Shown piece after piece: positions 22,905 to 63,365 of a stretch of DNA of 64,000 nucleotides. The notes under the pieces are model-generated. The model was not told the DNA's origin, did no database searches, and was given only the letters and a program-made list of their open reading frames with translations. The position numbers and the translations under genes were made by a program. Source of the stretch: Lutraria lutraria (Eukaryota; Mollusca; Bivalvia; Venerida; Mactridae); assembly GCA_964023205.1 (NCBI GenBank), contig OZ026839.1, positions 17,080,386 to 17,144,385 on the forward strand, read 5' to 3'. Every line of letters begins with the position of its first letter. Position 1 is the first letter of the stretch.

Positions 22905-25900
22905 CAGAATGACACGGACGCTGAACGGTCAAATCACCATCTCCGCCCAGCCTCTACACGGCGGCTGCACGGTCAAATCACCATCTCCGCCCAGCCTCTA
23001 CACGGAGGCCGCACGGTCAAATCACCATCTCCACCCAGCCTCTAAACGGCGGCTGCACGGTCAAATCACCATCTCCTCCCAGCCTCTACACGGCGGCTGA
23101 ACGGTCAAATCACCATCTCCGCCCAGCCTCTACACGGCGGCTGAACGGTCAAATCACCATCTCCGCCCAGCCTCTACACGGCGGCTGAACGGTCAAATCA
23201 CCATCTCCGCCCAGCCTCTACACGGCGGGTGCACGGTCAAATCACCATCTCCGCCCAGCCTCTACACGGCGGCTGCACGGTCAAATCACCATCTCCGCCC
23301 AGCCTCTACACGGCGGCTGCACGGTCAAATCACCATCTCCTCCCAGCCTCTACACGGAGGCCGCACGGTCAAATCTCCATCTCCGCCCAGCCTCTACACG
23401 GCGGCTGAACGGTCAAATCACCATCTCCGCCCAGCCTCAACACGGCGGCTGCACGGTCAAATCACCATCTCCTCCCAGCCTCTACACGGCGGCTGAACGG
23501 TCAAATCACCATCTCCGCCCAGCCTCTACACGGCGGCCGCACGGTCAAATCACCATCTCCTCCCAGCCTCTACACGGCGGCCGCACGGTCAAATCACCAT
23601 CTCCGCCCAGCCTCTACACGGCGGCTGAACGGTCAAATCACCATCTCCGCCCAGCCTCTACACGGCGGCTGCACGGTCAAATCACCATCTCCTCCCAGCC
23701 TCTACACGGCGGCTGCACGGTCAAATCACCATCTCCGCCCAGCCTCTACACGGCGGGTGCACGGTCAAATCACCATCTCCGCCCAGCCTCTACACGGCGG
23801 CTGCACGGTCAAATCACCATCTCCTCCCAGCCTCTACACGGCGGCTGCACGGTCAAATCACCATCTCCTCCCAGCCTCACGGCGTCTGCACGGTCAAATC
23901 ACCATCTCCGCCCAGCCTCTACACGGCGGCTGCACGGTCAAATCACCATCTCCTCCCAGCCTCTACACGGCGGCTGCACGGTCAAATCACCATCTCCTCC
24001 CAGCCTCACGGCGGCTGCACGGTCAAATCACCATCTCCGCCCAGCCTCTACACGGAGGCCGCACGGTCAAATCTCCATCTCCGCCCAGCCTCTACACGGC
24101 GGCTGAACGGTCAAATCACCATCTCCGCCCAGCCTCTACACGGCGGCTGCACGGTCAAATCACCATCTCCTCCCAGCCTCTACACGGCGGCTGAACGGTC
24201 AAATCACCATCTCCGCCCAGCCTCTACACGGCGGCCGCACGGTCAAATCACCATCTCCTCCCAGCCTCTACACGGCGGCCGCACGGTCAAATCACCATCT
24301 CCGCCCAGCCTCTACACGGCGGCTGAACGGTCAAATCACCATCTCCGCCCAGCCTCTACACGGCGGCTGCACGGTCAAATCACCATCTCCTCCCAGCCTC
24401 TACACGGCGGCTGAACGGTCAAATCACCATCTCCGCCCAGCCTCTACACGGCGGGTGCACGGTCAAATCACCATCTCCGCCCAGCCTCTACACGGCGGCT
24501 GCACGGTCAAATCACCATCTCCTCCCAGCCTCTACACGGCGGCTGCACGGTCAAATCACCATCTCCTCCCAGCCTCACGGCGTCTGCACGGTCAAATCAC
24601 CATCTCCGCCCAGCCTCTACACGGCGGCTGCACGGTCAAATCACCATCTCCTCCCAGCCTCTACACGGCGGCTGCACGGTCAAATCACCATCTCCTCCCA
24701 GCCTCACGGCGTCTGCACGGTCAAATCACCATCTCCGCCCAGCCTCTACACGGCGGCTGCACGGTCAAATCACCATCTCCTCCCAGCCTCTACACGGCGG
24801 CTGCACGGTCAAATCACCATCTCCTCCCAGCCTCACGGCGGCTGCACGGTCAAATCACCATCTCCTCCCAGCCTCACGGCGTCTGCACGGTCAAATCACC
24901 ATCTCCTCCCAGCCTCTACACGGCGGCTGCACGGTCAAATCACCATCTCCTCCCAGCCTCACGGCGTCTGCACGGTCAAATCACCATCTCCTCCCAGCCT
25001 CTACACGGTGGCTGCACGGTCAAATCACCATCTCCTCCCAGCCTCTACACGGAGGCCGCACGGTCAAATCACCATCTCCTCCCAGCCTCTACACGGCGGC
25101 TGCACGGTCAAATCACCATCTCCTCCCAGCCTCACGGCGGCTGCACGGTCAAATCACCATCTCCGCCCAGCCTCTATACGGCGGCTGCACGGTCAAACCA
25201 CCATCTCCTCCCAGCCTCTACACGGCGGGTGCACGGTCAAATCACCATCTCCTCCCAGCCTCTACACGGCGGGTGCACGGTCAAATCACCATCTCCTCCC
25301 AGCCTCTACACGGCGGCTGCACGGTCAAATCACCACCTCCGCCCAGCCTCTACACGGCGGCTGCACGGTCAAATCACCATCTCCTCCCAGCCTCTACACG
25401 GCGGCTGCACGGTCAAATCACCATCTCCTCCAAGCCTCTACACGGAGGCCGCACGGTCAAATCACCATCTCCTCCCAGCCTTTACACGGCGGCTGCACGG
25501 TCAAATCACCATCTCCTCCCAGCCTCTACACGGAGGCCGCACGGTCAAATCACCATCTCCGCCCAGCCTCTACACGGCGGCTGCACGGTCAAATCACCAT
25601 CTCCTCCCAGCCTCTACACGGCGGCTGCACGGTCAAATCACCATCTCCGCCCAGCCTCTACACGGCGGCTGCACGGTCAAATCACCATCTCCTCCCAGCC
25701 TCTACACGGCGGCTGAACGGTCAAATCACCATCTCCGCCCAGCCTCTACACGGCGGCTGCACGGTCAAATCACCATCTCCTCCCAGCCTCACGGCGGCTG
25801 CACGGTCAAATCACCATCTCCTCCCAGCCTCACGGCGGCTGCACGGTCAAATCACCATCTCCTCCCAGCCTCTACACGGCGGCTGCACGGTCAAATCACC

Positions 25901-26775
25901 ATCTCCTCCCAGCCTCTACACGGCGGCTGCACGGTCAAATCACCATCTCCTCCCAGCCTCTACACGGCGGCTGCACGGTCAAATCACCATCTCCGCCCAG
26001 CCTCTACACGGAGGCCGCACGGTCAAATCACCATCTCCTCCCAGCCTCTACACGGCGGCTGCACGGTCAAATCACCATCTCCTCCCAGCCTCTACACGGC
26101 GGCTGCACGGTCAAATCACCATCTCCTCCCAGCCTCTACACGGCGGCTGCACGGTTAAATCACCATCTCCGCCCAGCCTCTACACGGCGGCTGAACGGTC
26201 AAATCACCATCTCCTCCCAGCCTCTACACGGCGGCTGCACGGTCAAATCACCATCTCCGCCCAGCCTCTACACGGCGGCTGCACGGTCAAAACACCATCT
26301 CCTCCCAGCCTCTACACGGCGGCTGCACGGTCAAATCACCATCTCCTCCCAGCCTCTACACGGCGGCTGCACGGTCAAATCACCATCTCCGCCCAGCCTC
26401 TACACGGCGGCTGCACGGTCAAATCATCATCTCCTCCCAGCCTCTACACGGCGGCTGCACGGTCAAATCACCATCTCCGCCCAGCCTCTACACGGCGGCT
26501 GCACGGTCAAATCACCATCTCCTCCCAGCCTCTACACGGAGGCCGCACGGTCAAATCACCATCTCCTCCCTGCCTCACGGCGTCTGCACGGTCAAATCAC
26601 CATCTCCGCCCAGCCTCTACACGGCGGCTGCACGGTCAAATCACCATCTCCGCCCAGCCTCTACACGGCGGCTGCACGGTCAAATCACCATCTCCTCCCA
26701 GCCTCTACACGGCGGCTGCACGGTCAAATCACCATCTCCTCCCAGCCTCACGGCGTCTGCACGCTAACACGGAGG
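22905..26775. repeat. 44-bp satellite array, about 88 units, with 41-bp variants
   Basis: The 44-bp unit contains CACGGTCAAATCACCATCTC and CCCAGCCTCTACACGGCGG. Shorter 41-bp units lack 3 bp (CCTCACGGCG). A higher-order copy is visible: the rare GCGGGTGCAC variant at 23753 recurs at 24451, 698 bp later, equal to 14 units of 44 plus 2 of 41, with the following units in the same order. Open frames of more than 500 codons arise only because no forward frame of the commonest unit holds a stop. Confidence 0.97.
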
Positions 26776-29888: not shown

Positions 29889-32800
29889 ATGACAGAATCG
29901 AAAGTGGTACAAATGTTAAAGTCGGAAGCGGCTGAGGCGGCGGATTCAACGGATGGATTAATAAAAAGAAAAGGTAAAATACTAATATCTTTATCAATTT
30001 CTGACATGTTATAGTGTACACTATTTAAAGATTTATACTCTATAGTTATTTTCTGATTTACTCTGTACAGTCATCATGATAATGTTTACCTGAACGTTTA
30101 ATGTACGTAACATGACTTATAAATCTGATTTTATTTCATGTAAGGATAAATTCTATAATGCTTAGTATATCAATCATTCGAAAGTCGTTTGAATGATAAC
30201 GTTATTAAACACGAATTCTTATTGATTAAACATAATTTCTCTAGCTGTTTTCTGACATTTTTCATCTGGACACTATTTTAAAAATGGACATTTTTTGTTG
30301 AAATTCACCTGAATTATTACTAGTTGATTGTAAGAGGGTTCCGCGATCAGGAGCTTTTTTGAAAGAAATACTGTAAAGCAGCCCTGCAGATAAGCATCTT
30401 TGATATAGTCTTTGTTACAAAATAAAAGCCCATACTACTTTGGAAAAGTAATGCTATTTCATATATGAATAAAACACGGCTCTATGCTAGCGACACTATA
30501 ATTAAACGAAATAGGTAGATTTTACAAACTTGTATCTCTACTGGTCTGAAACACTCTAGCTGTTGTTCTCAACAATGGTTAACGGCCACATCGTGTTCTT
30601 GATGTATTAAGAACCTAGGTATGTTTGTTTTACAACAATGGAGTCCAACGGAAACTGGATATACCTTGTTTTGATTTTGGTTTATATAATAAATGATATC
30701 TATAAGACTTACGTCAGATTATATTAAACATCTGTACTCCTACATAAATTAAAAGTTACGTATACAGGAAGGAAGTAAATCGTTATACTTGTAATCATAA
30801 TACTTTCATTGATAAAGTAACGAATTGTACCCGAAAGTTTTGCATGAAGCACGTATTTTTTCCTTCACAATATACACTTGTATTATATAAACTGTACTAT
30901 CTTGTTCTATTTAGGATCTGAGGACAGTAATGAAACATGTAACAGTCGGGAGACCTGGGACAACAAGGCACAATATATTCTTGCCGTCGTCGGATTTGCC
31001 GTCGGTTTGGGAAACGTTTGGAGGTTTCCTTATCTGGCCCAGAAAAATGGCGGAGGTAGATAAATTAAGTGATGTTTTTATTTCTGTAGATTACGACTCG
31101 CTGGCCTCCCTTTATTCATTCATACTGGACGTTATTCAACGGAACACATACACCTCATTATATTATATATTGTCAAACGTGTACAAAAAACGATCTAGAA
31201 GACGAGTTTCATTTTGTATGCCAATGTCCTTTCTATGCTAACTTACGTAAGAAATATATAAAACCATATTTTTATAATAAACCATCCATGTCTAAAATTT
31301 TAGAATTATTAAATTTTCAAAATAAACAATTCCTAGTTAAAGTATCTTTATTTATAAAAAGTAGCCATACGAATGAAAAAATCATTGACGAATAACATTT
31401 AACAACTCTGTTCATCTTCAATGACAATAATTTGACCTTTTTTCTTTTGTAGTTGTACAATAATTCTGGTACAACGTGACTAATTGTATATTGTAAATTT
31501 ATGTTTGTATTTTATATGCATATGATCAAGGACTTATGTATGTAAGTCCTTGATATGATGTACTTATGTACAAAATCCAATACATTTCTGTTCTGTTCTG
31601 TACATTGTTTGTATATTCCACATAAATGCCTACATCATTGTAAGATAAGATGGCTTGATATTCATTTATTTTACATCACTTAGTAAATTTGAAATGTATA
31701 GTTGTATGCACTGAAATTGTCAGATAATGGACCGCTCTCGACGGTGCAAAGCTGTCGATCAATAATGTTTTCGAAATTTGATCTTTATTTTGTATTTATA
31801 TTGTATTTTATTTGACAATAAAGTATTTTATACGATGTTAATCCTTTATTTTGCAGGTGCTTTCCTCATCCCGTACACCATCATGTTAGCAATAGAAGGT
31901 ATCCCAATATTCTATCTGGAACTTGCTATTGGACAAAGGTTGAGGAAAGGCGCGGTCGGGGCCTGGAATGAAATCTCTCCGTATCTCGGTGGTATAGGTA
32001 TAGCCAGTGCTGTGATTTCATTCTGGGTCGGTTTTTACTATAACACAATTATAGCCTGGTGTTTATATTACATGGTTCAGAGTTTTATGTCTCCTTTACC
32101 TTGGTCAGAATGTCCAACAACGGTGAACATTGTCGACAATACAACAGTTGTAGTAGAAGAATGTCGGGTGAGTGAATACTACTAGTAGCAATATGTACTA
32201 CATAGCTCAAATCTCAAATATACTCTTGAAATACATCTCTATCAAATACAAATTTAGCTCATGTATGCCGACAGAATAATGTACAATTCTAAGTTTAGTT
32301 TTATCACAACTAAATTAGAACTTTGTAATAAATAGGCAAAACATGTACGAATTCCAGCCGTCTAATGTTCGTGGTGTAGATTAGTACATTCAACTCTTTC
32401 TGATTCCACGTTTGTTCTATTCTTCATATAAAGGGTAATATTATGTAAAATATTTTCTTCATTTTAGTTAAGTGGACCGACTACCTATTTCTGGTACCGT
32501 GAAACACTTAATATATCCCCGGATGTAAATGAAGGTGGTGAGATGAACTGGTGGATTGTGGTCTCCTTGGTAACGGCGTGGCTGATCGTGTTTCTATGTG
32601 TATGCAAAGGAATAGCATCCACGGGCAAAGTAATGACTTGTTTTAACTTTTATATCAATCTTTCTTTACGGCTTAGTCACACTGAACAATAATACGTTAA
32701 ATAGATAATGATTTATTGCATAATTGACATATACATTCAAATATTACATACAAACATGCAGAAAGCATTGAAATGAATTATTCTGCGCATTTTAATAGCC

Positions 32801-35800
32801 GATCGTATAATGTACGAGGTGACAAGACTATACCGCCTTATGTTGATAAGTACATGTAATCTAACATGTTAACAATGGATGTATATGTTTTCAGGTAGTG
32901 TATTTTACTGCCACCTTTCCGTATTTGGTCCTGATCATCTTCTTTTTCCGTGGTGTTACTTTAGACGGATTCCAGCATGGTCTTCATCGTTTCTTTGTAC
33001 CAGATGTAAGTAAACATAACTCTGGCAAAACAATAAGCCTATTTTTCTGAGTTACTTCCCTTGGGTTATTTACTAAAATTAAACAGGTTCCCGTTGCACT
33101 CTGTCTGTACAAAACCTTTGGTGCTCTGCAACACAGAACGGGAACCAGTCTAAAATGAAGGCAATACTCATAATCATCCTAGTTTTATGGTGATTTATAT
33201 CTGAGTGGAAATTATACTATAAAAAGTACGAACATTTGAAAACATACTTTATTTGTTTTGCTGTCCAGAAGATTCTGATATTCTTTTCGTTACATTGACT
33301 CATAGAAGTCCTATTAAATAGTATAATAATCATATCATAAAGAGCACACCCAATTAGCCAAAACAATACTCATTGATCTTCGGACCTGGGTTGGTGAGTT
33401 CGAACACTGGCTTGATACTTGTGCTCTGTGATTAATTGGTTGGAGACATTATCTCTTAAGTCCATTTTTCCTGCTGTGTTGATACGAGTGATGAATGTAA
33501 GGAACAAGGTCAATACTGGTACAATATTCTGAAGAAATTCATTAAAGCTAACTGTCCACTAATATATATCAGAGGGACGGTTTAGTTTAAACTTATTTAA
33601 TTTACATCGATTGTAAAACAAGTTCTTACGATTTGTATTAACTTAACTCTCGATGACTGCTTCCTGAATTCTGACCTGTACTTGCGCCGAAAGAAGGGAT
33701 TGTGAAGGTTCCGGTCAAATTCCTCCACAGACGGGATTTGAATGGTAACACTCTGGACTACTTGGGCCCCGCCTTTCAAATTTATCTTTCGGAAGGAGTA
33801 GGATTCTCCTGTATCTAACTAGTATCTCCCATCTCTCTGGGGCGGCTCTAATATCACCATACTATATACAAATGTATAACAGAAAAACTCATTGGTGTAA
33901 ATAGGTTTAAGCCGGAAATACATTTTTATTTTGACATTGCAATGTATATTAGTAGGCATGTACATGTATGTTTCATCTATCTATATGCGATATTTCAGTT
34001 TTCACGACTAGTAGACCCACAAGTGTGGTTAGATGCTGCCACTCAGATATTTTTCAGTCTTGGTCTAGCGTTTGGAAGTCTTATAGCTTTTTCCTCTTAT
34101 ATGCCACTACGGAACAGTTGTTACCGTGACGCTGTGTTTGTATCAGTGGTAAACTGTGGTACCTCTGTGTTTGCTGGAGCCGTCGTGTTCTCTATATTAG
34201 GTAGTGTATAAGTTTGTCTTCATATCGAACACTTACATTCTGTTCTCTTATACAATTGTTACAGTTTTCAAGACTAGCAGATCCACAAGTATGGCTTGAG
34301 GCGGCGACACAAATATTTTTCAGCCTCAGTTTGGCCTTTGGTGGTCTTATAGCTTTCGCATCTTACATGCCTGTCAGAAACAACTGCTATAAAGACGCTA
34401 TCTGTGTTTCTATAGTGAACAGTGGGACTTCCGTTTTCGCTGGAATCGTTATATTCTCAATTCTTGGTAATTCTAACAATAAAAATAGAAGTGATCCGAG
34501 CATGTTGTTAACCACTATATTATGACTATCCCCTCACCTACTTCCGACTACTTGAGACCACTTCCTGTTCATTTATATGATTTCTTGTATAAACCGTTAT
34601 GATGCCGTTTGAACTCACACCTTTTTCCTTATCGGTCATAATTATGGTTACAGACACTAATATGCATGTGTAATTACAAGCACAAACCTTGCATTATCAA
34701 GATTGGCGACTGCTAATTGTATACTGAATTTAGCTTTTTGTAAAACGTTGTTTGTACAGGTGATGTTTTATGCAATGTATGCATTTCTCAGATAGAATTA
34801 GAATTCGATTTAGCATTTGCTTGCCAAATATCTTACTAGCATGGAAATATTTATGTTTTAATGTGACATTTCATTTTTTGACAAATTGTAGGTTTTAAAG
34901 CCACGCAGAGTTTTAATGCTTGTATGGAAACCAGACACTATGAGCTTCTACGACTGTTTAATACTACAGACTTGATTATTCCAACCGAGGGAACCACAAC
35001 AAACTTCACAATGTACGATAGCAATACCCAAACATGGTATCAGGAAACTGGTGTCATGCCAACACTACAAGAATGTGATTTACAACATGAGATAGAAAAG
35101 GTTGTTATTATTACTGAGTATGTAGGGCCATATTAAATAATGTCACGGCAGGTCATGTTAAATGATGTCACGTCAGGCCATATTAAATAATGTCACGTCA
35201 GGTCATATTAAATAATGTCACGTCCGGTCATGTTAAATGATGTCACGTCAGGCCATATTAAATAATGTCACGTCAGGTCATATTGAATAATGTCACGTTA
35301 GGTCATGTTAAATAATGTCACGTCAGGTCATGTTAAATGATGTTACGTCAGGCCATATTAAATAATGTCACGTCAGGTCATATTAAATAATGTCACGTTA
35401 GGTCATGTTAAATAATGTCACGTCAGGTCATGTTAAATGATGTTACGTCAGGCCATATTAAATAATGTCACGTCAGATCATATTAAATAATGTCACGTCA
35501 TGTTAAATGATGTCACGTCAGGTCATATTAAATGATGTCACGTCAGGTCATGTTAAATGATGTCACGTCAGGTCATATTAAATGATGTCACGTCAGGTCA
35601 TATTAAATGATGTCACATCAGGTCATATTAAATGATGTCACGTCAGGTCATGTTTAATAATATCACGTTGGGTCATGTTTAATAATATCACGTTGGGTCA
35701 TGTTAAATCATATTACGATGGGTCATGTTAAATCATATCACGATGGGTCATGTTTGATAATATCACGATGGGTCATGTTTAATAATATTAAATCATATCA

Positions 35801-38800
35801 CGATGGGTCGTGTTTAATAATATCACGATGGGTCATGTTTAATAATATTAAATCATATCACGATGGGTCATGTTTAATAATATCACGATGGGTCATGTTT
35901 AATAATATTAAATCATATCACGATGGGTCATGTTTAATAATATCACGATTGGTCATGTTTAATAACATCACGATGGGTCATGTTTGATAATATTAAATCA
36001 TATCACGATGGGTCATGTTAAATAATATCACGATGGATCATGTTAAATAATGTCACGATGAATCATGTTAAATAATATCACGATGGATCATGTTAAATCA
36101 TATCACGTTGGGTCATATTAAATCATATCACGTTGGGTCATATTAAATCATATCATATATTAGTTCATATTAAATCGAACATGTTTATATCCGACAGAAC
36201 CCAAATATGCGTCGTAAACACTCTCTTTATTTTATTATAAATAAACATTATGCCTTAAATTCAACACAACAGTAAACTGTACTATACATTTATTATAATG
36301 TAATTCAACATTTGAATAATTTACGGATAATTTCATTCATGTCTCTGTGGGAAAGAACTACATATTGCAATCATTTACAAACACACATTCAGGTATGATC
36401 CACAACTTGTAAACCATATTCATCCATTTAAACAAGTTTGTTTATTCTAATCTTTTCTACAACCTTAACAGAAATTATGATACCGTATGCATTTTAACTA
36501 TGAAATCATACATATTGAATTAAAAAAATACTAGTGGAGACGTATTTAAGAGCACTTATGTATTTATATGATGTCATCTACAACAAATCAATGAACTATG
36601 AGCTACTTAAGAAATGTGAAAGACAGATCGCACCTTAGTCGTGGGATAATTTTGCTTTATATTCAAAACTCTGAATGAATGATCGCACCTTTTAATAGAC
36701 ATAATAACGTTTTTTTCTATTTCCACAAATGTTTAGTTTCAGTATTTTCCCCAAACTTATTCTTCTTTCATCCTGATGTTGATATTGTAGGGGTGATTCG
36801 GGGTGATATTTCAGGGGGTGATTCGGGGTGATATTGTAGGGGGATTTGGAATGGTATTGTAGGGGGTGATTCGTGGTGATATTGTTGGGGTATTCGGGGT
36901 GATATTGTAGGGTGGTAATTCGGGGTGATATTGACGGGCCGTGTTTTAGCTTGATATAAAAGGGTGATATTGTATGTGCGAGGTCTAGTGTGATATTGTA
37001 GGGGCGTGATTTAGGGTGATACTGAGTGCGTGATTTCTTTCTTTTCAGATAAATATTACATAAGGAACTTATTCCCCTAGTTTATTCATTTTTATTTTTT
37101 TCCAGTCAGGATCTGGGACTGGTCTCGTGTTTATAGCTTTCACAGAAGCCATCAATCAGTTTCCCGTGGCTCAACTATGGTCTGTGCTGTTTTTTCTCAT
37201 GTTATTGACCCTAGGATTGGACAGTATGTTTGGCATGGTTGAAAGTGCTGTAACTTCACTCGTAGACATGAACATGATTCCGAAAGTCAAGAAATGGCAC
37301 TACTTTAGTAAGTATTCATACTCTGTTTTCGGCGTACAACTAGCATAATACTATGACTTTTAAAATACATCCACTTGTGAATAAAAATTCTCAAAAAGAA
37401 GTTCAGCCTTTGTGCTCTGTTGGCATGTACAGAAAGTTGATATATTAGTAACCTTAATTTTGTACTTCAAAAACTGACCTTTGTTCATATAATGGTTTTT
37501 ATTTATAGCTCAGACTGCAACGCGTATTTGACTGTATAAGTATAATGTTAACTTCATAGTATAAAAGAAATATCTTTGATCGTAGTGTATGGTTAGTACA
37601 GACCTTTGATCAGTAGGTTCGAACCTTCGTCGCGGTGCATGTTCAATCTGACACTTTGGTTGAAAACATTATGCTATGACTATACGTTTTCTACCACTGA
37701 TAGTTCACATTGGAACTGGTTGTTAGTTAACAGAGAACAATAATATCTGGTCAGGAATACAGGAACCACTTGATATATTGGCTTTAATGTTAAAACTGTG
37801 TATAGGAACGTAGGGTCATTTATGTTTTATGTTTGTATTGTCAACTAACTCTCTGTTCTATGACTAACATAGCCAAACTCCTACTATAACTGCCGGAGTA
37901 TTTACCCACTATGTTTGTATTTAGTGAAGTTGTTTAAATGACCGTGTTAATGTACCATGTCTGTTCTACAGGACTGAAATTAATAACGTATACATATTCA
38001 TTTATGTTTTAATATCCATATATTATATACGTTATGTTTACTTTACATAAAACTTACAGTTTTGTTCTGCTTTTTTCAGGTATAATTTGTGGAGTGTCCT
38101 GCATTTTGTCACTATGTTTCGCCAATCAAGCAGGTCCCTATGTGTTTGTCTTATTTGATGAATACAGCGGTAACATACCGTTACTGATTGTAGCACTGTC
38201 ACAGGTCCTCGCTGTGTCTTACGTTTATGGTTTGAAAAGGTAACTTACGACAACCAGTTTCAGTTATTCACAAAATCGGCAAATACAACTATAAGATGAA
38301 ATCAACAAACACACATTTATATAAATAGATCTACATACATATACAAAGAATAATGCAACTGTACCATTGAATAATTACAACACATTATGATAATACATGT
38401 ACAAAAAAAATACATGTCATAATACTAAGTTTCAGGTCGGGTCAGTGTACTACAAACCACAGGGGTTTGTCACGAAAACAAAATCCTAAAAAAAATTCCA
38501 TGTAACCCATATATATATAGCTATATATACATATGGGTTACATTGAAAACAAAATTAGGATTTTTTTTCGTGACAAACCCCTTTGCTACAAACACAAGAA
38601 AGAAATGTAAATGGTCAGAATATTGTTGAGGTCATGATAAACATACAACACATAAACTACATATAGACAACACATAAACTACATATAGACAATAATCATA
38701 TTACTAAATGTTTTATATTTACTGTCATCTAGAAATGATGGTCATCATGTGAATTACGACAGCAGACATTAATTAAAACATTGTATTCTGAAACCAGTAA

Positions 38801-41800
38801 ACCTCTGATGAAAACCAACTACATGACGTTCTCATTGTTTCCTTCCCTTTGATGACATTAGTTCACTGGTTTGACCGTAACAATGTTCATTTCGAATATG
38901 GAACATTATGCTACATGTATATTGTATATACACATTAAAGAGTATATACTGCTTACTCTATTTGGTTTACTTCATTATGAAGTAAGAATGTAGCATAGTT
39001 TCTTAACTTTCTCAGACATTATATTAAGAGGCATACATTGTATGACATGATAATTATATTGATATTTGTTATAACAGTGTCCTAATATATTTGAGTGCTC
39101 AATGTCCAAGCGTCCAGGTATTGTGAATTTGAAATACTCAGGAGTCAAGGGTTAATATCAACAGTTATCACATTGATCCTTTAATTACACACCTCTTTAA
39201 TATCGACACTTAATTGATAAAAGTAAAACGCAGTCTAGAATTTATGTTACGAGTAAACGCTTTGTGAATTTATACCTCAGTGATTTAAAATAAGTGCATT
39301 GTAATCAAACACATAGATATTCTTAAATGATAACGTTTCAAGGATTGTTTGACGTGTAATTTGTAATACGTTTGCACTTACAGTTGTCAATTATGTATTC
39401 AATAAAACTCCGTCCTGTTCGTCAATTAACTCCTTTATGAAGGTTATCCCGTGTCGATGCTTTAATGTAAAAACGATTTCAATCACGCACGTTTTTCTTT
39501 TTACCCAACACGCCTACGACTGTCGCAAACTTGCAAGCTTGGGTTATAAATGTTTTACTCGTTATTTTTTCGACAGGATATTGCCGATAAATTTAAATGT
39601 TGAAGGCATTAGACTCGTTTTCACACATTTTATAGGAGACGTACTCATTATTCTTTATATTACAGAAAACAATGTTAAATATTTGTAATTATATGACATT
39701 TTGAAGTAATACGTTATTCAGTACAATTCTAGTATGTACAAGATACCCAAGTCTTGTGGGACATGCTTTTATTACAATAATCTGGGGTGAAACTTTCGTC
39801 AGAAAGAAGTGCTCACTGAGACCTTTAAAAGTAAAAGAATCTTAAATAAACATATCTTCTCGCTTTGATACTTTATTTGTGATTGATTAAAATAGAAAAA
39901 AAATGCAACAAAAATGGAAGAATTAGTACAAGTCGTCGCGAAATATTAATTACGCTTGTGTGTTAACATTAATTTCATCGTCGGTAGGAGGTAATATAAT
40001 AATGTGTGTAACTTATGTGTTAAGTAATTTAGTACATGTATATACATGTACTATATACACATATCAAACTCTGGGTTAACGATGAGATGTGAATAAAGTT
40101 TTCCATGTCGGCATTCTTAAGAAAACGTTATTAATATAGGAGAATTGAATCTCTGAATCCAAGTGAACTATTAAAAAATCCACATTTCGTCTGAATTAAG
40201 ATAAACTGTTCAATCTGTTGTCCATTGATTCTTTCTGTTTTAATACAGGGGTCTTTAGAGTATCTCACTGTTTTAGTAAAAACAATTTTATATTAGTATT
40301 TCCTTCTATTTACCAGATTTAGCGATGATATAGAGTTGATGACTGGTCAGAGACCTAACTGGTACTGGCTTGCTTGTTGGAAGTACATCTCTCCCTTTGC
40401 TATGTTTATTATACTGGTTGCCAGCCTCGCAAAGATGTCAAATGGTACCACCTACCAAGCATGGAACCCAGAACTCGTAAGTAGCCTGTTCAGTAGACTT
40501 CATCAGTCTAGTTAGTAATTCTAGTATAAGATAGAGCAAGACTTCATCAGTCTAGTTAGTAATTCTAGTATAAGATAGAACAAGACTTCATTAGTCTAGT
40601 TAGTAATACTAGTATAAGATAGAGCAAGACTTCATCAGTCTAGTTAGTAATTCTAGTATCCGATAGAGCAAGACTTCATTAGTCTAGTTAGTAATTCTAG
40701 TATCTGATAGAACAAGACTTCATTAGTCTAGTTAGTAATTCTAGTATCCGATAGAGCAAGACTTCATTAGTCTAGTTAGTAATTCTAGTATCCGATAGAG
40801 CAAGACTTCATTGGTCTAGTTAGTAATTCTAGTATCCGATAGAGCAAGACTTCATCAGTCTAGTTAGTAATTCTAGTATCCGATAGAGCAAGACTTTAAC
40901 TAATAATTGACCGTATAAGTCGAATTTCTAACTGGTTTTAATATCATGTCATGTTTTGTGTGATTTTAATGCGCTTGATGGAATCCATTTTGTTTATCTG
41001 AACCATTACATGATGAAATTTAAAGATTTTATTAAACAACAACTGAATAACAACAACAAAAAACTTGATAATTATATGACTATATATTTACTTATATCTG
41101 CTGTCACAATGTTTTTAGTACAAGCTAACTCCAATAAATAAATAAAATGTCAGACAGGACGGTCGCTGTTTCTATCAACAACTAAAAACAGCAGCTGGCT
41201 ATGAAGCGCTGGTTCACATATTTGATTAAATTATTCGGTAAACACGTGTGTCGATGTTGTATAACGTTAACACGTTGAAATATCAACAGTGGCGCTGTCA
41301 TGTTCCTATGTGTCATCAATACAGCTGTACATCTATGTATATCCTGATGGTGGCCAACTTGTTCATATATATAAATCCAATTTTATGTTAAGTTAGAGCG
41401 CTTATATTCACTGATAAAACGGTTCTGTTCATGGTTTTCTTCACCCTGATGTCATTTAAATTAAAACTCATATGAAAATGCGAAGACTCCGATGATTTGA
41501 ATGTTCTTAAATCTATACGCATATACATAACGTGAAGCATTATTTGTACAATGTATACTAGTAGTTAATGTTTGCAGGGTGAAAATATGATCACAGATTG
41601 GCCAGGATGGTGTAGATTTATTGCTGCATTTCTTATATTGACACCAACATTATGGATACCAGGGGTGGCTATAGCCAAGTATTTCAGGTACATTACTTAT
41701 GCTCATTAGAATTTTAGATAGAACGTGTTTTAATTTCTTTGATCATTAATAACTTAATATTGGTTAGATTTATTTTTCTTTTAATATAAGCACTAAATGG

Positions 41801-42292
41801 CGAGGTAATACACTGCACAGTTTTTCAGAAATTTGTTTGACCAAACTTTAGATGTTACTATATGTGATAAAAAACCTACATTTCGACTCCTAGTAATTTA
41901 CGTGCCAATTCTTGAGGAATTGATTAAACATTACACTCGGAATTGGTAGGTACAATACATTATGCAGGTTTGACCGTTCCAATCTAAAGAAGGTAATTTC
42001 ATAATCAATGTATAAAACGACTCTAAATAAATTTATTTTAATTTTCAGATTGTACAATTGGACGCAATCAGAACCAGCATTTTTCCCGCGTGAAAAACTT
42101 CAAGCAGAGTTGGCTTTAACTAAATGTGATAGCCTTAGATGCGAATCAACATGGAAGACAAAATGGGAGGCGAAGCTTTTCTACTGGATGCCATTTTGTG
42201 GCACGAGAAACGAAATGGATGCCGTTGAAGACGATATGACAGATTCCAAAACGTCAGACGATACAAAATCTGGGAATGAATCACCTTGTTGA
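29889..42292 (+). CDS. SLC6 (B0AT-like) Na+/Cl- coupled amino-acid transporter, about 698 aa
   Basis: Coding exons: 29889-29973, 30915-31055, 31857-32167, 32468-32629, 32895-33005, then either 33999-34200 or 34265-34466, 34892-35100, 37106-37307, 38080-38239, 40317-40476, 41578-41687, 42049-42292 (TGA). Using one copy of the sixth exon gives 2097 nt with all phases matching. The start is the first in-frame ATG after a TAG. TM1 carries [20 protein letters not shown], the SLC6 signature. [20 protein letters not shown], then a YYNTIIAW...PLPWSEC stretch in TM3, and DLITP-free TM8 DSMFGMVE follow. The order and spacing fit twelve membrane segments. The closest known group by eye is SLC6A18/19/20 (neutral amino-acid carriers of the plasma membrane). 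The tail is acidic and ends ESPC. The donor at 35101 is weak (GTTGTT). Confidence 0.93.
31077..31605 (+). pseudogene. 3' end of a non-LTR retrotransposon, in an SLC6 intron
   Basis: A frame near 31140-31396 keeps [20 protein letters not shown] followed by [14 protein letters not shown], a Cys/His motif seen after the reverse-transcriptase domain in molluscan LINEs, and ends at a stop (TAA). The downstream 3' UTR-like sequence ends in a TTCTGTTCTGTTCTG tail near 31588-31602. It is 5'-truncated, as LINE insertions often are. Confidence 0.7.
33350..33480. mobile_element. tRNA-derived SINE-like fragment
   Basis: Contains GAGTTCGAACACTGGC, a B-box-like motif, after a possible A-box region, then GTGCTCTGTGATT and TTGGTTGGAGACATTATC. 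The piece at 37590-37690 has a similar order of motifs. Confidence 0.35.
33597..33779 (-). other. unrecognised 60-codon open frame in SLC6 intron 5
   Basis: A minus-strand frame beginning [11 protein letters not shown]. It has no recognised domain, and its GC content is somewhat above its flanks. Possibly a relic of a dispersed repeat. Confidence 0.15.
33999..34200 (+). CDS. alternative exon 6a of the SLC6 gene (TM6-TM7)
   Basis: A 202-nt exon, phase 0 in and phase 1 out, after TATTTCAG and before GTAGTG. It encodes 67 residues, including [16 protein letters not shown] (unwound TM6, part of the central substrate site) and TM7. At the LeuT Ser256-equivalent position it has Gly, as monoamine and GABA carriers do. 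No stops or broken splice sites are seen. Confidence 0.9.
34265..34466 (+). CDS. alternative exon 6b of the SLC6 gene (TM6-TM7)
   Basis: Also 202 nt with the same phases as 6a, after TTGTTACAG and before GTAATT. It encodes [16 protein letters not shown] and differs from 6a at 14 of 67 residues by my count. The LeuT Ser256-equivalent position is Ser, as in amino-acid carriers. Only 64 bp separate it from 6a. Splicing both together would shift the frame. Confidence 0.9.
35127..36175. repeat. 25-bp tandem array, about 42 units, in an SLC6 intron
   Basis: The left half has units with TGTCACGTCAGGTCAT and TTAAATAA. From about 35640 the unit drifts to TATCACGATGGGTCATG, sometimes with an extra TATTAAATCA piece. 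It lies in the 2-kb intron after exon 34892-35100. Confidence 0.95.
36783..37035. repeat. short G-rich minisatellite (GGGGTGATATTGTAGG)
   Basis: About ten irregular copies of GGTGATATTGTAGGG alternate with GTGATTCGGG. They lie just upstream of SLC6 exon 37106-37307. Confidence 0.85.
37590..37690. mobile_element. tRNA-derived SINE-like fragment
   Basis: TGGTTAGTACAGACC resembles a tRNA A box, and GTAGGTTCGAACCTT about 20 bp later a B box. The tail GACACTTTGGTTGAAAACATT parallels that at 33435-33455. Confidence 0.4.
38458..38585. mobile_element. hAT-like MITE, 128 bp, with 8-bp target duplication
   Basis: The two halves are near-inverted copies of about 60 bp: CACAGGGGTTTGTCACGAAA at the left and CAAAGGGGTTTGTCACGAAA read inward from the right. 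CTACAAAC flanks both sides (38450-38457 and 38586-38593). The 8-bp duplication and CA-GGGG-type ends fit the hAT superfamily. Confidence 0.75.
40490..40895. repeat. 44-bp tandem repeat, about 9 units, beside an SLC6 donor
   Basis: The unit holds GACTTCATTAGTCTAGTTAG and TAATTCTAGTATCCGATAGA. It begins within about 20 bp of the donor at 40477. It is unrelated to the 44-bp array at 22905. Confidence 0.93.
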
Positions 42293-46420: not shown

Positions 46421-47510
46421 GTCAAATCTTCCTATTGAACCGTGTGAAGGTTCCTGTAAGTCGTGTTTAATGCCACCATAAATTACTAGTATGTCATTTC
46501 TGCCGACATAAAGAAAGTTTTGATGGGTTAAGTATAAAACGTCAGAAGTGTAAACATGTCTACATAATATGTATTCGTTTTATCTAAACCCATGGGAATG
46601 ATGTTCAACTCCAATAGTTGTGTCTGTCAACATGTAAAAGAAATGAAGAAAAGTGTCCATTTAACTACATGACTGTACTTACCTAAACAGGACACTAGCT
46701 GGAGATCCTCGTGGTTAACAACCACTCTGTTAATGAAACATTTGTTGATATGATCTACAATGTATATGATAGTCTAAATAACTCTGTACATGTATAAATC
46801 TCATATATTTGTATTTATTTTCTAACTGACGTTGTATTTATTCATGAGTTTTACTGTATGTCATAACACATAATGTGCACATTTGTCTTCACTTAAAGCA
46901 TCAACCTGTATATTAATACATGTATCTAAACAGATACTCAAAGTTTGAATGTTAATTCTACATAATCAACCTCGTCATAAGTCCGTAGAGACGATAAGTC
47001 AGACCCATCCATTTCCAAACATTTCACTAATCGCTACACGAATACAAAAAAACCCAAAAAAATCCAGGACTAGAGAGGAGACTGATGTTATCATTGTTTC
47101 AATGATTAAAGTTCAAAACATTCAGTACGGAATAATAAAAAATGGATAATTTAGGATGTATCCAATTTTATAATGATTTCAATGGTAAAATTAATATTGA
47201 AACAAAAGGAAAAATGATTTATAGAGCGGAAAAATAAATTAGTAACAAGTATAATGTAGTTAATGGTATAATTTACTGTGGATATAGTTGTTCCATTGTT
47301 TTCTCTATCCACACCATTTCTCGCTTTGTTCTGCTTACTTGTGACTAGTGACATGTTTCAGTGGTCCCATTGTTCGACCTTTGAAACCACTCGCTTAACA
47401 TTTACTTCAATTTCATGTTTTATTAAACAATGGCAATTGGGTAAAACATATTACGATATTAAGCCATTAACTGAAATATTATAAATCTCATATGGTTTGA
47501 TATCGGACGT
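46421..47510 (+). other. upstream region of the TRIM gene
   Basis: AT-rich and without recognised elements. A pyrimidine-rich CCGGCTCTCCCAG ends exactly at the preferred start codon and could be a 3' splice site of an upstream non-coding exon. Confidence 0.35.
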
Positions 47511-47579
47511 TTGTATTGGACATGCATATTCTGGAAATGGTTTATTAAAGTGCTTACAATGTTGTCCCGGCTCTCCCAG

Positions 47580-49580
47580 ATGGAGACAGATTCCGAGATA
47601 GGAGAGACATTCAAACTGACACAATCTCGTACAACTCCAAGGAAAGCTACATTGAACGCATTTTCGGACGAACTATTAAATTGCCAACTCTGTCACAGCC
47701 GTTTTAGAAATCCAAAGAGTCTGTCGTGTTTACATTCATTCTGCGAAACGTGTTTGAATGTATACATAGCAAAGCTTCCGGGAGAGAAGAACCGCTTCTA
47801 TCCGTGTCCAGTCTGTAAAGAGTTACACCCTGTACCGAAAAGTGAGGAGTTCGCCCCGGAGATGTCTGGTATGCCTCTGATGTCAAGACGATCTTCCATC
47901 GAAGAATTGACAAACCGTTCGGAGCGTAATATGGCTTTGACAATACGTGCCGACCGTCGCTGCGACCCGTGCCATGAAAATGACGAGATGGTACAGGCTT
48001 TATACTGGTGCCCGACTTGTCGAGAATCTTTGTGCGATACGTGTACAAAAAGCCACCGTGGAATGAAAATAACAAAAAGTCATCCTCTGATGGACGTCGA
48101 TGACGTACGAGAGCGACAAGTGCATATGATTCGCGCACACGATATTTGCCCAGATCACAGAGGTAAACTACTTGATCTCTACTGCCAAGATCACCAATGC
48201 CCCGTCTGCAACACTTGTGTAGCTGTCTCACATCGCCGCTGTGATACGATCCTAGCAATTGACAGGGTGGCGAAAAATATTCGTTCTAAGAAAACCAACA
48301 AGTCACTTCAACGGCGATTGCGACACTGTATAAATATAGTGGATGTTGTATTATCTTCGAAGGAACAGTCGAAATCTAGGCTTATAGCAAGAAAGGGAAG
48401 CGTATTAGATGAAGTGTCCAAGCTCAAGATGTCCATTATTCAGCTTCTGGACGAACTTGAAGATAAAATGAAAGACGAGCTTGATGCTGTCAGTCGAGAC
48501 TATGAAGACATCCTACAAGGTAAGATTGATCGAAGTAAAGGTTTACGAGACTCTATCCAGAGTGCCTTGACTTCAGTTCAAACCACACTGGATTCAGGCA
48601 CTGATTATCAGCAAGTTTTGGCTACTCAATCGCTCAGAGAAGAAGTTGATAAGTATGAACACATGGCTGATGATGAAAGAATTGATTACAAAGATGTAGA
48701 TTTGATGTTCACACCGGATGAGAATCTCGTACGATTGGCAAAACTGGTTGACCGAATTGGGTACGTAGAAGTGTCCGAAAAACGAGAAATGTCGAAACCA
48801 TTCCGAAATTGCTCAGCACAGAAAAATGGCATTATAAATGGAAAAATCAAAGGGGATAGAAATGGTTGCATCTTTAATTCGATCGATATATCTGAAACAG
48901 GAGAAATAATCTTGTCAGATTTCAACAACTGCTCAGTGAAATTGTTTGACCAATTCGGCATGTTTCGGTCATCATCGAAGCTCAATTCGCCACCTCGTGG
49001 TGTTGCCATGCTTCCTGAAATGATGGCTGCCGTCGCACTTCCGGAAGAATGCGTGATCAAGTTGATGTCGGTGGAAGGAAAATTTCTCGCCAGTGTCCGT
49101 GAGTTGCACACGTCTTTTAAAGCATACAGAATAAGTAATTACTTTGGGAAACTATTGGGAATATGTTACTCCAAAGCCTGTAGAAGTTTATGTATTGTAG
49201 AAAAGAATGGACGTGTGGAAAAGACGATCACACGGAAACGTGATTACAAGGGGCTTGGAGGCGTCGCGTTTGACAATGTGAAAAACTACATGTACATGTC
49301 TGATCGTAACGCAATTACCTGCTACAATGGAAACGGCAAACAAGTGTATCGTAATACATACAATTGGCCAGATCTTCGAGGTATGGCACTGGACAGCCAA
49401 GGTAACCTTTACGTTTGCTCCCACGACTCGGGGCAGGTACTGCAAATTGCACCAGACGGAACTTTCATCAAATCTATGCTAGTTCCAATCTCACCACAGG
49501 ATGTTGCTATAGAACCAATGGGTAATAAGATGGTTGTTGTGGGTCTAGGAGAAATCATTCATGTATATAATCTTGTGTAA
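47580..49580 (+). CDS. TRIM-family protein: RING, two B-boxes, coiled coil, NHL-like (666 aa)
   Basis: Single uninterrupted frame. I prefer ATG 47580 (METDSEIG); an upstream in-frame ATG at 47511 would add 23 hydrophobic, atypical residues. The RING is C3HC4 with C35, C38, C50, H52, C55, C58, C76 and C79. B-box 1 starts near residue 128 (CDPCHENDEM...CPTCRESLCDTC). B-box 2 lies at about 187-225 (CPDHRGKLLDLYC...CNTC). A long charged helical stretch to about 380 fits a coiled coil. The C-terminal ~240 residues show repeated GVAxx / SGEIILSD / DSQGNLYVC motifs, as in NHL beta-propellers (TRIM2/3/56/71 style). Likely a cytoplasmic E3 ubiquitin ligase; its substrate is unknown. TRIM genes are strongly expanded in bivalves, and a tandem paralogue may lie beyond the window's right end. 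Confidence 0.92.
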   Translation: METDSEIGETFKLTQSRTTPRKATLNAFSDELLNCQLCHSRFRNPKSLSCLHSFCETCLNVYIAKLPGEKNRFYPCPVCKELHPVPKSEEFAPEMSGMPLMSRRSSIEELTNRSERNMALTIRADRRCDPCHENDEMVQALYWCPTCRESLCDTCTKSHRGMKITKSHPLMDVDDVRERQVHMIRAHDICPDHRGKLLDLYCQDHQCPVCNTCVAVSHRRCDTILAIDRVAKNIRSKKTNKSLQRRLRHCINIVDVVLSSKEQSKSRLIARKGSVLDEVSKLKMSIIQLLDELEDKMKDELDAVSRDYEDILQGKIDRSKGLRDSIQSALTSVQTTLDSGTDYQQVLATQSLREEVDKYEHMADDERIDYKDVDLMFTPDENLVRLAKLVDRIGYVEVSEKREMSKPFRNCSAQKNGIINGKIKGDRNGCIFNSIDISETGEIILSDFNNCSVKLFDQFGMFRSSSKLNSPPRGVAMLPEMMAAVALPEECVIKLMSVEGKFLASVRELHTSFKAYRISNYFGKLLGICYSKACRSLCIVEKNGRVEKTITRKRDYKGLGGVAFDNVKNYMYMSDRNAITCYNGNGKQVYRNTYNWPDLRGMALDSQGNLYVCSHDSGQVLQIAPDGTFIKSMLVPISPQDVAIEPMGNKMVVVGLGEIIHVYNLV

Positions 49581-51339: not shown

Positions 51340-52262
51340 ACAAGATGCATACTGTCCTACATGGTACAATACGACCATGTAGGAGAGTATAATCTTGTAC
51401 AATGCGACCATGTAGGACAGTATGTATCTTGTACAATGCGGCCATGTAGGACAGTATGTATCTTGTACAATGCCACCATGTAGGACAGTATTTCTTGTAC
51501 AATGCGACCATGTAGGACATTATGTATCTTGTACAATGCGACCATGTAGGACATTATGTATCTTGTACAATGCGACCATGTAGGACAGTATTTCTTGTAC
51601 AATGCGACCATGTAGGACATTATGTATCTTGTACATTGCGGCCATGTAGGACATAATGTATCTTGTACAATGCGACCGTGTAGGACATTATGTATCTTGT
51701 ACAATGCGACCATGTAGGACATTATGTATCTTGTACAATGCGACCATGTAGGACATTATGTATCTTGTACAATGCGACCATGTAGGACAGTATGTATCTT
51801 GTACAATGCGACCATGTAGGACATCATGTATCTTGTACAATGCGATCATGTAGGACAGTATGTATCTTGTACAATGCGACCATGTAGGACAGTATTTCTT
51901 GTACAATGCGACCATGTAGGACATTATGTATCTTGTACAATGCGACCATGTAGGACATTATGTATCTTGTACAATGCGACCATGTAGGACAGTATTTCTT
52001 GTACAATGCGACCATGTAGGACATTATGTATCTTGTACAATGCGACCATGTAGGACATTATGTATCTTGTACAATGCGACCATGTAGGACATTATGTATC
52101 TTGTACAATGCGACCATGTAGGACAGTATGTATCTTGTACAATGCGACCATGTAGGACATTATGTATCTTGTACAATACGATCATGTAGGACATTATGTA
52201 TCTTGTACAATGCGACCATGTAGGACATTATGTATATTGTACAATGCGACCATGTAGGATAG
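51340..52262. repeat. 34-bp satellite, about 27 units
   Basis: The unit contains GTATCTTGTACAATGCGACC and ATGTAGGACATT; a 30-bp version lacks GTAT (AGTATTTCTTG). Variation is at few sites (ATT/AGT, CGACC/CGGCC). It passes into the 54-bp array with no spacer at about 52262. Confidence 0.97.
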
Positions 52263-53884
52263 TATGTAGCAGAAAACTTATGTAGCAGATATAAAATACT
52301 CATACTTCTATAATACTACAGAAGGATAAACTTATGTAACAGATATAAAACACTGATACTTCTATAATACTAAAGAAGGATAAACTTATGTTCCAGATAT
52401 AAAACACTCATACTTCTAACATACTACAGAAGGATAAACTTATGTACCAGATATAAAACACTGATACTTCTAACATACTACATAGGGATAAACTTATGTT
52501 CCAGATATAAAACACTCATACTTCTATAATACTACAGAAGGATAAACTTATGTAGCAGATATAAAACACTCATACTTCTAACATACTACAGAAGGATAAA
52601 CTTATGTAGCAGATATAAAACACTCATACTTCTAACATACTACAGAAGGATAAAACTTATGTAGCAGATATAAAACACTCATACTTCTAACATACTACAG
52701 AAGGATAAACTTATGTAGCAGATATAAAACACTCATACTTCTAACATACTACATAGGGATAAACTTATGTAGCAGATATAAAACACTCATACTTCTAACA
52801 TACTACAGAAGGATAAACTTATGTAGCAGATATAAAACACTCATACTTCTAACATACTACAGAAGGATAAACTTATGTAGCAGATATAAAACACTCATAC
52901 TTCTAACATACTACAGAAGGATAAACTTATGTAGCAGATATAAAACACTCATACTTCTAACAAACTACATAGGGATAAACTTATGTAGCAGATATAAAAC
53001 ACTGATACTTCTAACATACTACATAGGGATAAACTTATGTACCAGATATAAAACACTGATACTTCTAACATACTACAGAAGGATAAACTTATGTAGCAGA
53101 TATAAAACACTGATACTTCTAACATACTACATAGGGATAAACTTATGTACCAGATATAAAACACTCATACTTCTAACATACTACATAGGGATAAACTTAT
53201 GTTCCAGATATAAAACACTCATACTTCTAACATACTACAGAAGGATAAACTTATGTACCAGATATAAAACACTCATACTTCTAACATACTACAGAAGGAT
53301 AAACTTATGTAGCAGATATAAAACACTCATACTTCTAACATACTACATAGGGATAAACTTATGTAGCAGATATAAAACACTCATACTTCTAACATACTAC
53401 AGAAGGATAAACTTATGTTCCAGATATAAAACACTCATACTTCTATAATACTACAGAAGGATAAACTTATGTAGCAGATATAAAACACTCATACTTCTAA
53501 CATACTACAGAAGGATAAACTTATGTAGCAGATATAAAACACTCATACTTCTAACATACTACATAGGGATAAACTTATGTTCCAGATATAAAACACTCAT
53601 ACTTCTAACATACTACAGAAGGATAAACTTATGTACCAGATATAAAACACTCATACTTCTAACATACTACAGAAGGATAAACTTATGTAGCAGATATAAA
53701 ACACTCATACTTCTAACATACTACATAGGGATAAACTTATGTACCAGATATAAAACACTCATACTTCTAACATACTACAGAAGGATAAACTTATGTTCCA
53801 GATATAAAACACTCATACTTCTAACATACTACAGAAGGATAAACTTATGTCGCAGATATAAAACACTCATACTTCTATAACATA
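52262..53884. repeat. 54-bp satellite, first block, about 30 units
   Basis: The unit carries GCAGATATAAAACACTCATA, CTTCTAACATACTAC and GGATAAACTTATGT. Variable sites: TATGT followed by AGC/TTC/ACC; CTC/CTG before ATAC; TAACA/TATAA; and ACAGAAGG/ACATAGGG. It ends at unique sequence. Confidence 0.97.
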
Positions 53885-63000: not shown

Positions 63001-63365
63001 CTAATACTTCATTGATAATTTTCCATGTTATATCTTTAAATCAATCATCACAAATGTACTCACCTCGCTACAACATTGTGATAAGAATTGATAAAAAGAC
63101 GAAACAACAATAAATTACTGATATTATTTTCTTTTGTATAATTTGAGCGTATCTAATGAATTCTTTATTGGAAAAAAGACATGCGTGATTACAGTGTATT
63201 GTTGAACCTATCGATCAAACATTCTATTACGTGTGGTTTAATGTAAATGTAGATTGTGTGACTTTAACTGGAAAAAAGTTTGTATGTATGCACTAGTAGA
63301 TATATATGAAAATAAACTTTAGTTTGCGACTAAATTGTTTTCATGTTCACGTTCGTTTTTTAGCT
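63001..63365. repeat. right-hand copy of the segment at 45578-46420
   Basis: It begins at the end of the satellite and matches the region upstream of the TRIM gene in order and orientation, with one large gap (about 375 bp missing) and many substitutions. Confidence 0.75.

Follow-up and report, generated by a model that had tools for sequence, protein, structure and literature searches.

Tandem, probably mutually exclusive TM6-TM7 exons in a B0AT/SIT1-like SLC6 transporter gene of the clam Lutraria lutraria

Results

The window analysed here, a 64-kb stretch (64,000 nucleotides) of Lutraria lutraria DNA, holds on its forward strand a gene for a B0AT/SIT1-like SLC6 transporter (positions 29889-42292). 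Its 12 coding exons, with an alternative exon 6, are bounded by GT-AG sites and keep a continuous frame. Exons 1-4 lie at 29889-29973, 30915-31055, 31857-32167 and 32468-32629, followed by exon 5 (32895-33005), which ends in phase 0 and is the upstream partner of two versions of exon 6, termed 6a (33999-34200) and 6b (34265-34466) and separated by a 64-nt gap (34201-34264). Exon 7 (34892-35100) enters in phase 1 and can join 6a or 6b, and exons 8-12 follow at 37106-37307, 38080-38239, 40317-40476, 41578-41687 and 42049-42292. The gene model around the exon pair was assembled by eye from the DNA sequence. Tandem repeats lie inside the introns at 35125-36155 and 40495-40896 (25-bp and 44-bp units), the former starting about 25 bp past exon 7; the donor of that exon, GTTGTT, has the poorest score among the twelve in the gene.

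Elsewhere in the window, a 701-residue open frame on the forward strand (47475-49577) encodes RING and B-box zinc fingers by Pfam and belongs to a TRIM-like gene; towards the end of the frame there is weak similarity to SMP-30, which stays under the family cutoff. C2H2 zinc-finger coding stretches were matched by Pfam on the reverse strand at 32-922 and 4032-4274; these perhaps form one gene with 7862-8245, which itself has no Pfam match. Four satellite arrays, at 22912-26763 (44-bp unit x 88), 51364-52268 (34-bp unit x 27), 52274-53877 (54-bp unit x 30) and 54457-63003 (54-bp-based, 108 bp x 79), together make up about 23% of the window. Rfam searches at gathering thresholds yielded no family in the 64 kb.

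Each of the two exons is 202 nt long, enters in phase 0 and leaves in phase 1; the coordinates, lengths, phases and 64-bp gap given in the original prediction proved exact when rechecked on the sequence. The acceptors read ATTTCAG|TTT (6a) and GTTACAG|TTT (6b), the donors TTAG|GTAGTG (6a) and CTTG|GTAATT (6b). Conceptual splicing confirmed that either exon fits the flanking exons 5 and 7 with an open frame, giving a predicted protein of 698 aa in both cases. Inclusion of 6a and 6b together shifts the frame and runs into a stop roughly 12 codons from the start of 6b, the frame break that had been anticipated, and skipping of both shifts the frame to a stop in exon 7. The pair thus consists of adjoining homologous internal exons of equal length and matching frame without in-frame stops, and the frame shift on joint inclusion is a further property by which mutually exclusive clusters are recognised.

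The solved structures nearest to the gene product are human B0AT1 (588.9 bits, E 1.6e-175) and XTRP3/SIT1 (571 bits), followed by GAT1 at no more than 422 bits. By comparison with solved structures, the product is of the B0AT/SIT1 type (SLC6A15-20) rather than a GlyT, GAT or monoamine carrier, with neutral amino-acid transport as its putative function. Pfam PF00209 (SNF) matches exon 6b alone with 95 bits (cutoff 27), and a relative in Mactra antiquata, P0001, with 694.5 bits over two stretches; the B0AT1 match and the Pfam family both support the predicted SLC6 identity. Close relatives of the gene product occur in Mercenaria, Ruditapes, Mya, Pecten, Mytilus, Ostrea and Solemya, and these bivalve proteins are probably orthologues. 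A structure predicted for the Mercenaria relative, with a mean pLDDT of 76.8, matches human SIT1 and B0AT1 best by fold. Exon 6 corresponds to residues 271-337 of this model, in which TM6a spans 277-291, a break 292-296 and TM6b 297-302, with TM7 from 311, supporting the claim that the exons encode TM6-TM7 with the unwound part of TM6.

The 6a and 6b peptides share 53/67 residues and the exons 144/202 nucleotides; the six-frame translation of the window holds no other ungapped match to the 6a peptide better than 14/67. Among the 58 nucleotide differences, 38 fall at third positions, and the codon differences comprise 31 synonymous and 14 nonsynonymous changes (pN 0.131; pS 0.78, which is saturated). 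Neutral drift was simulated by giving one copy 57 random substitutions, about the observed number of changes, in 5000 runs. The mean outcome was 32 identical residues, 53/67 was reached in 0/5000 runs and a stop was gained in 83% of them. Both 6a and 6b are clearly real exons and, to judge from their sequences, both are held by purifying selection.

Mactra antiquata P0001 (759 aa) holds both copies of exon 6. Like pairs between the two species agree at 58/62 (6a-6a) and 64/67 residues (6b-6b), cross pairs at 50/67 and 52/62, and the two copies inside one gene at 53/67 here and 49/62 in Mactra antiquata; in an exon tree (FastTree) the two like-with-like pairs have support of 0.98 and 0.95. Since each copy matches its own counterpart in Mactra, the duplication is placed before the split from the Mactra antiquata lineage, and conversion has not erased the difference between the copies. 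The exon tree does not place the duplication relative to other bivalves. The gene architecture and the Mactra counterparts confirm the proposed tandem TM6-TM7 pair, and its presence in an independent Mactra antiquata genome record contradicts an assembly error, which had been named as grounds for rejecting it. Judged by this single protein, the closest bivalve is Mactra antiquata (Mactridae), with 529/631 residues identical outside exon 6; identity is 35/37 in exon 5, 52/54 in exon 10, 44/48 in exon 2, 45/70 in exon 7 and 55/81 in exon 12. The conservation of 6b matches that of other membrane-core exons and exceeds that of exons 7 and 12, and is not exceptional.

The duplication had been proposed as something to seek in other bivalve SLC6 genes, and among the 13 bivalve proteins listed it was found in Mactra antiquata and was absent from the 12 others. 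A strict 6b-type motif matched P0001 as its only hit in a scan of 344 proteins. A 6b-centred search was also run on fragment-sized proteins, of which the best 120 of 406 matches were considered; nine bivalve-like exon ORFs, hand-picked from 17 ORFs obtained in this search, were all of the Gly type described below (9/9), and none of the matches listed was identified as a transcript of either isoform. These protein records suggest that 6b is missing outside Mactridae. P0014 of a sturgeon carries the region twice, 115 residues apart and near-identical over the stretch compared, and was discounted as a probable artefact of modelling.

LeuT numbers were obtained by adding 234 to the exon position, residues 237-300 of chain 2a65 lying on residues 2-65 of the LeuT stretch used for this site mapping, so that the Ser of the stretch falls at 256; the alignment itself shows 3mpn, where chain numbers are lower by 4. 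At the LeuT-256 position 6a has Gly and 6b has Ser, as originally predicted; in LeuT, Ser256 is among the ligands of the substrate amine. The corresponding residue of the Mercenaria model, 292, opens the TM6 break. On this alignment it is the only one of the 14 differing positions that maps to a known substrate contact, and the remaining 13 residue changes between 6a and 6b are mostly conservative. The ion-site residues are equal in the two exons, namely Ser, Asn and Ser at exon positions 20, 52 and 56 (LeuT 254, 286 and 290); in TM6-TM7, LeuT 254 and 286 belong to the Na1 site and 290 is the chloride position. A role at the chloride site is given to Glu290 in a passage of PMC8310414.

GlyT1 has Gly and GlyT2 has Ser at the LeuT-256 site. 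Vandenberg in 2007 reportedly found that a Gly at this GlyT site admits sarcosine. Ser308 of the transporter KAAT1 presumably also aligns with LeuT 256. In the portions of the literature consulted, Ser481 of GlyT2 is described as part of the glycine site, its mutation raising Km (PMC6166138), and S481G as lowering inhibitor potency, for ALX1393 more than for ORG25543 (PMC8691691); Ser308 of KAAT1, in the non-helical part of TM6, is assigned the main role in selectivity, with similar results accounting for the difference between GlyT1 and GlyT2 (PMC8310414).

Among the matches listed, Gly occupies the LeuT-256 position in 12/12 named non-Mactra bivalve and 4/4 gastropod proteins. It does so too in 95/95 further rows of P0016-P0120, by name mostly arthropod with some unnamed, a count that leaves out ten rows set aside or counted elsewhere. 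Ser is present in 79/83 rows of P0142-P0224, by name mostly vertebrate, the four Gly rows being from Actinia, Owenia, Lineus and Nematostella. Named cnidarians have six Ser and four Gly (n=10) and cephalopods one Gly and three Ser (n=4), and all motif matches among the 344 proteins amount to 219 Gly, 126 Ser and 3 Ala, the taxon groups in these counts overlapping. Human B0AT1 aligns with Ser at this position, as in 6b. Exon 6a looks to have kept an ancestral protostome Gly, and the Ser of 6b looks derived and converged on the vertebrate B0AT state. Because Gly is the residue that B0AT-like proteins of protostomes usually have, it gives no pointer to monoamine or GABA substrates, and the part of the original prediction that took it as a mark of monoamine and GABA carriers has to be dropped.

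Octopus bimaculoides has Gly in P0013 and Ser in P0131 and P0161; P0013 and P0161 are only about half identical and must therefore come from two genes. The same Gly/Ser split may thus have arisen by gene duplication in octopus. The octopus isoforms P0131, P0160 and P0161 were considered as a parallel to the exon pair and rejected, as their X1 and X2 forms differ by loss of an exon-5 segment in another gene. The X2 isoforms P0160 and P0161 are without the exon-5-equivalent segment (approximately TM5), which should disable the transporter and may reflect either regulated skipping or faulty prediction.

The original prediction had suggested that the 64-bp gap may be too short to splice. Matches to yTnAy were found in the gap at +22, +35 and +50 from the 6a donor, all of them predicted sites. 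The +35 match, a branch-point-like CTTAC whose A lies 29 nt from the 6b acceptor, is the likeliest candidate branch point by sequence and distance; the +50 match sits 14 nt from that acceptor. In human work a donor-to-branch-point distance below 50 nt is used as the criterion for steric interference, one of several mechanisms published for exclusive splicing, according to part of Hatje et al. 2017 (PMC5740500), and the branch points of human OGDH exons 4a/4b are reported at 25-41 nt in an excerpt of PMC7969005. That the gap is too short for splicing is plausible by this human criterion, which may differ in molluscs. Given the frame break and the short predicted donor-to-branch-point distance, mutually exclusive splicing of 6a and 6b is likely, and is the best reading of the pair.

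When the gene's twelve donors are scored with a crude metazoan matrix, that of 6a ranks second from the bottom (-0.18) and that of 6b fourth from the bottom (1.45). Incompatibility between U2 and U12 splice sites was ruled out as a cause of exclusion: the four sites are ordinary GT-AG sites, and neither donor resembles the U12 consensus. RNA folding over 34180-34285 detected no structure beyond chance (z +0.42). Of inverted repeats able to dock intron 5 to the gap, one candidate pair was detected (33482-33501 and 34232-34251, 75% complementary, with 730 nt between the arms); it was not counted, because chance alone would give about 0.2 perfect cores of 9 bp.

Discussion

We consider it likely that exon 6 was duplicated before the split from Mactra antiquata and that the two copies persist as mutually exclusive exons, giving two predicted isoforms. 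Tandem duplication of exon 6 in a clam gene for a B0AT/SIT1-like Na+/Cl- amino-acid transporter would have left a 64-nt intron in which the 6a donor lies too close to the branch point of 6b for the two exons to be joined, and the spliceosome would splice exon 5 to one or the other of them. The frame shift would serve as a backstop, presumably via nonsense-mediated decay. Each choice would install a different TM6-TM7 in which the ion ligands are kept and one substrate contact is changed from Gly to Ser. The outcome would be two carriers differing in amino-acid preference or affinity, by tissue or salinity, and this is the least certain step of the proposal. One gene can thus probably make two transporters with different preferences; we infer different substrate ranges for the 6a and 6b isoforms, and a changed affinity or kinetics would fit equally. 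A more specific version, tentative and on the whole doubtful, is that splicing toggles the central substrate site between a GlyT1-like form, which has Gly and would admit N-methylated or imino osmolytes, and a form with Ser, as in GlyT2 and human B0AT1, for primary amino acids. If this were true, exon duplication would play here the part that a pair of genes may play in octopus, and the choice might depend on osmotic state or tissue.

The competing explanation that we take most seriously, with a chance somewhat short of even, retains exclusive exons and supposes that the switch alters expression, trafficking or kinetics, the Gly/Ser change being neutral for substrate range. Such neutrality would sit well with the presence of both residues within B0AT-like proteins and with the conservative nature of most of the other 13 differences, and less well with the fact that the same site separates GlyT1 from GlyT2, where GlyT2 mutants change Km and inhibitor potency (PMC6166138, PMC8691691), or with the control of selectivity by Ser308 in the non-helical TM6 of KAAT1 (PMC8310414), as far as the cited passages go.

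Other alternatives concern the exons themselves. The early stop on joint inclusion would be usable for regulated decay if one of the two acted as a poison or regulatory exon and reduced expression when included, but either exon alone gives a full-length predicted protein and both peptides are conserved in Mactra, which a poison exon would not need, and we regard this reading as improbable. Tandem exon duplicates often decay; that one exon-6 copy is such a decaying duplicate is nevertheless very hard to reconcile with intact frames, third-position bias, a pN of 0.13 against a pS of 0.78 and counterparts of both copies in Mactra. Hardly any credence is due to an assembly or haplotype artefact: the window is rich in tandem arrays, where assemblies err, which is no direct evidence, and the exons differ at 58/202 nt, far above allelic divergence, and recur as a pair in the independent Mactra record. 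The Mactra antiquata gene model itself raises one further possibility, since P0001 ends 6a early and splices to 6b in frame, and both exons might accordingly enter one in-frame message via an internal 6a donor, with an extra TM6-TM7 hairpin; the Pfam match to P0001 in two stretches agrees with such a joined product. If this predicted model were correct, the exons would not be exclusive. However, the extra hairpin would sit in the core of the LeuT fold, P0001 lacks the end of 6a, the kind of cut that predictors make to preserve a frame, and the arrangement is absent in the 12 other bivalve proteins listed. We judge a fused message highly unlikely and, because it would place two TM6-TM7 hairpins in a LeuT fold, read P0001 as a gene-prediction artefact.

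SLC6 carriers, which are major drug targets, control the levels of neurotransmitters and of nutrient amino acids, and the residues that set their substrate choice are still argued from mutants. Bivalves, moreover, use free amino acids as osmolytes. Under mutually exclusive use of 6a and 6b, the clam gene would offer a natural isogenic swap of TM6-TM7, with ion ligands kept, in an animal with amino-acid osmolytes. A cDNA pair differing in 14 residues would be a direct probe of the role of LeuT-256 in substrate choice, and the same exon pair bears on whether bivalves control amino-acid uptake by splicing.

The original prediction knew of no description of such a pair in bivalves, and we found no report of mutually exclusive exons in SLC6 among the matches listed from open-access full text. 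Exclusive tandem exons as such are already known, including in other solute carriers, and it is the SLC6 case for which no precedent was found among the open-access matches listed. They recur in ion-transport genes, as part of PMC9741552 describes, and the solute carriers SLC12A1 (NKCC2), SLC39A14 and SLC25A3 have them (PMC9741552, PMC5740500, in the sections consulted); none of these is an SLC6 gene, and the term SLC6 is absent from the main text of PMC5740500. Within SLC6, the clam gene resembles the B0AT1/B0AT2/B0AT3/SIT1 carriers in sequence match, with a likeness in fold shown for the Mercenaria relative. It differs from the B0AT/SIT1-type bivalve proteins, of which 12 of the 13 listed have a single exon-6 copy, in having two, as Mactra antiquata does. 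GlyT1 and GlyT2 (SLC6A9 and SLC6A5) are told apart by Gly or Ser at one TM6 position, as are 6a and 6b, but are two genes, whereas 6a and 6b are two exons in one gene. OGDH exons 4a/4b, in an enzyme gene studied in vertebrates, have mapped branch points at a short distance from the donor, like the distance that is predicted for the clam pair. The closest functional parallel is NALCN, an ion channel where our gene encodes a secondary transporter: as set out in part of PMC3557258, its tandem exclusive exons 15a/15b, present in flatworms, molluscs, annelids, echinoderms and hemichordates, swap the selectivity filter between EEEE and EKEE, so that there too, in molluscs among other invertebrates, a selectivity residue is exchanged by the choice between neighbouring exons.
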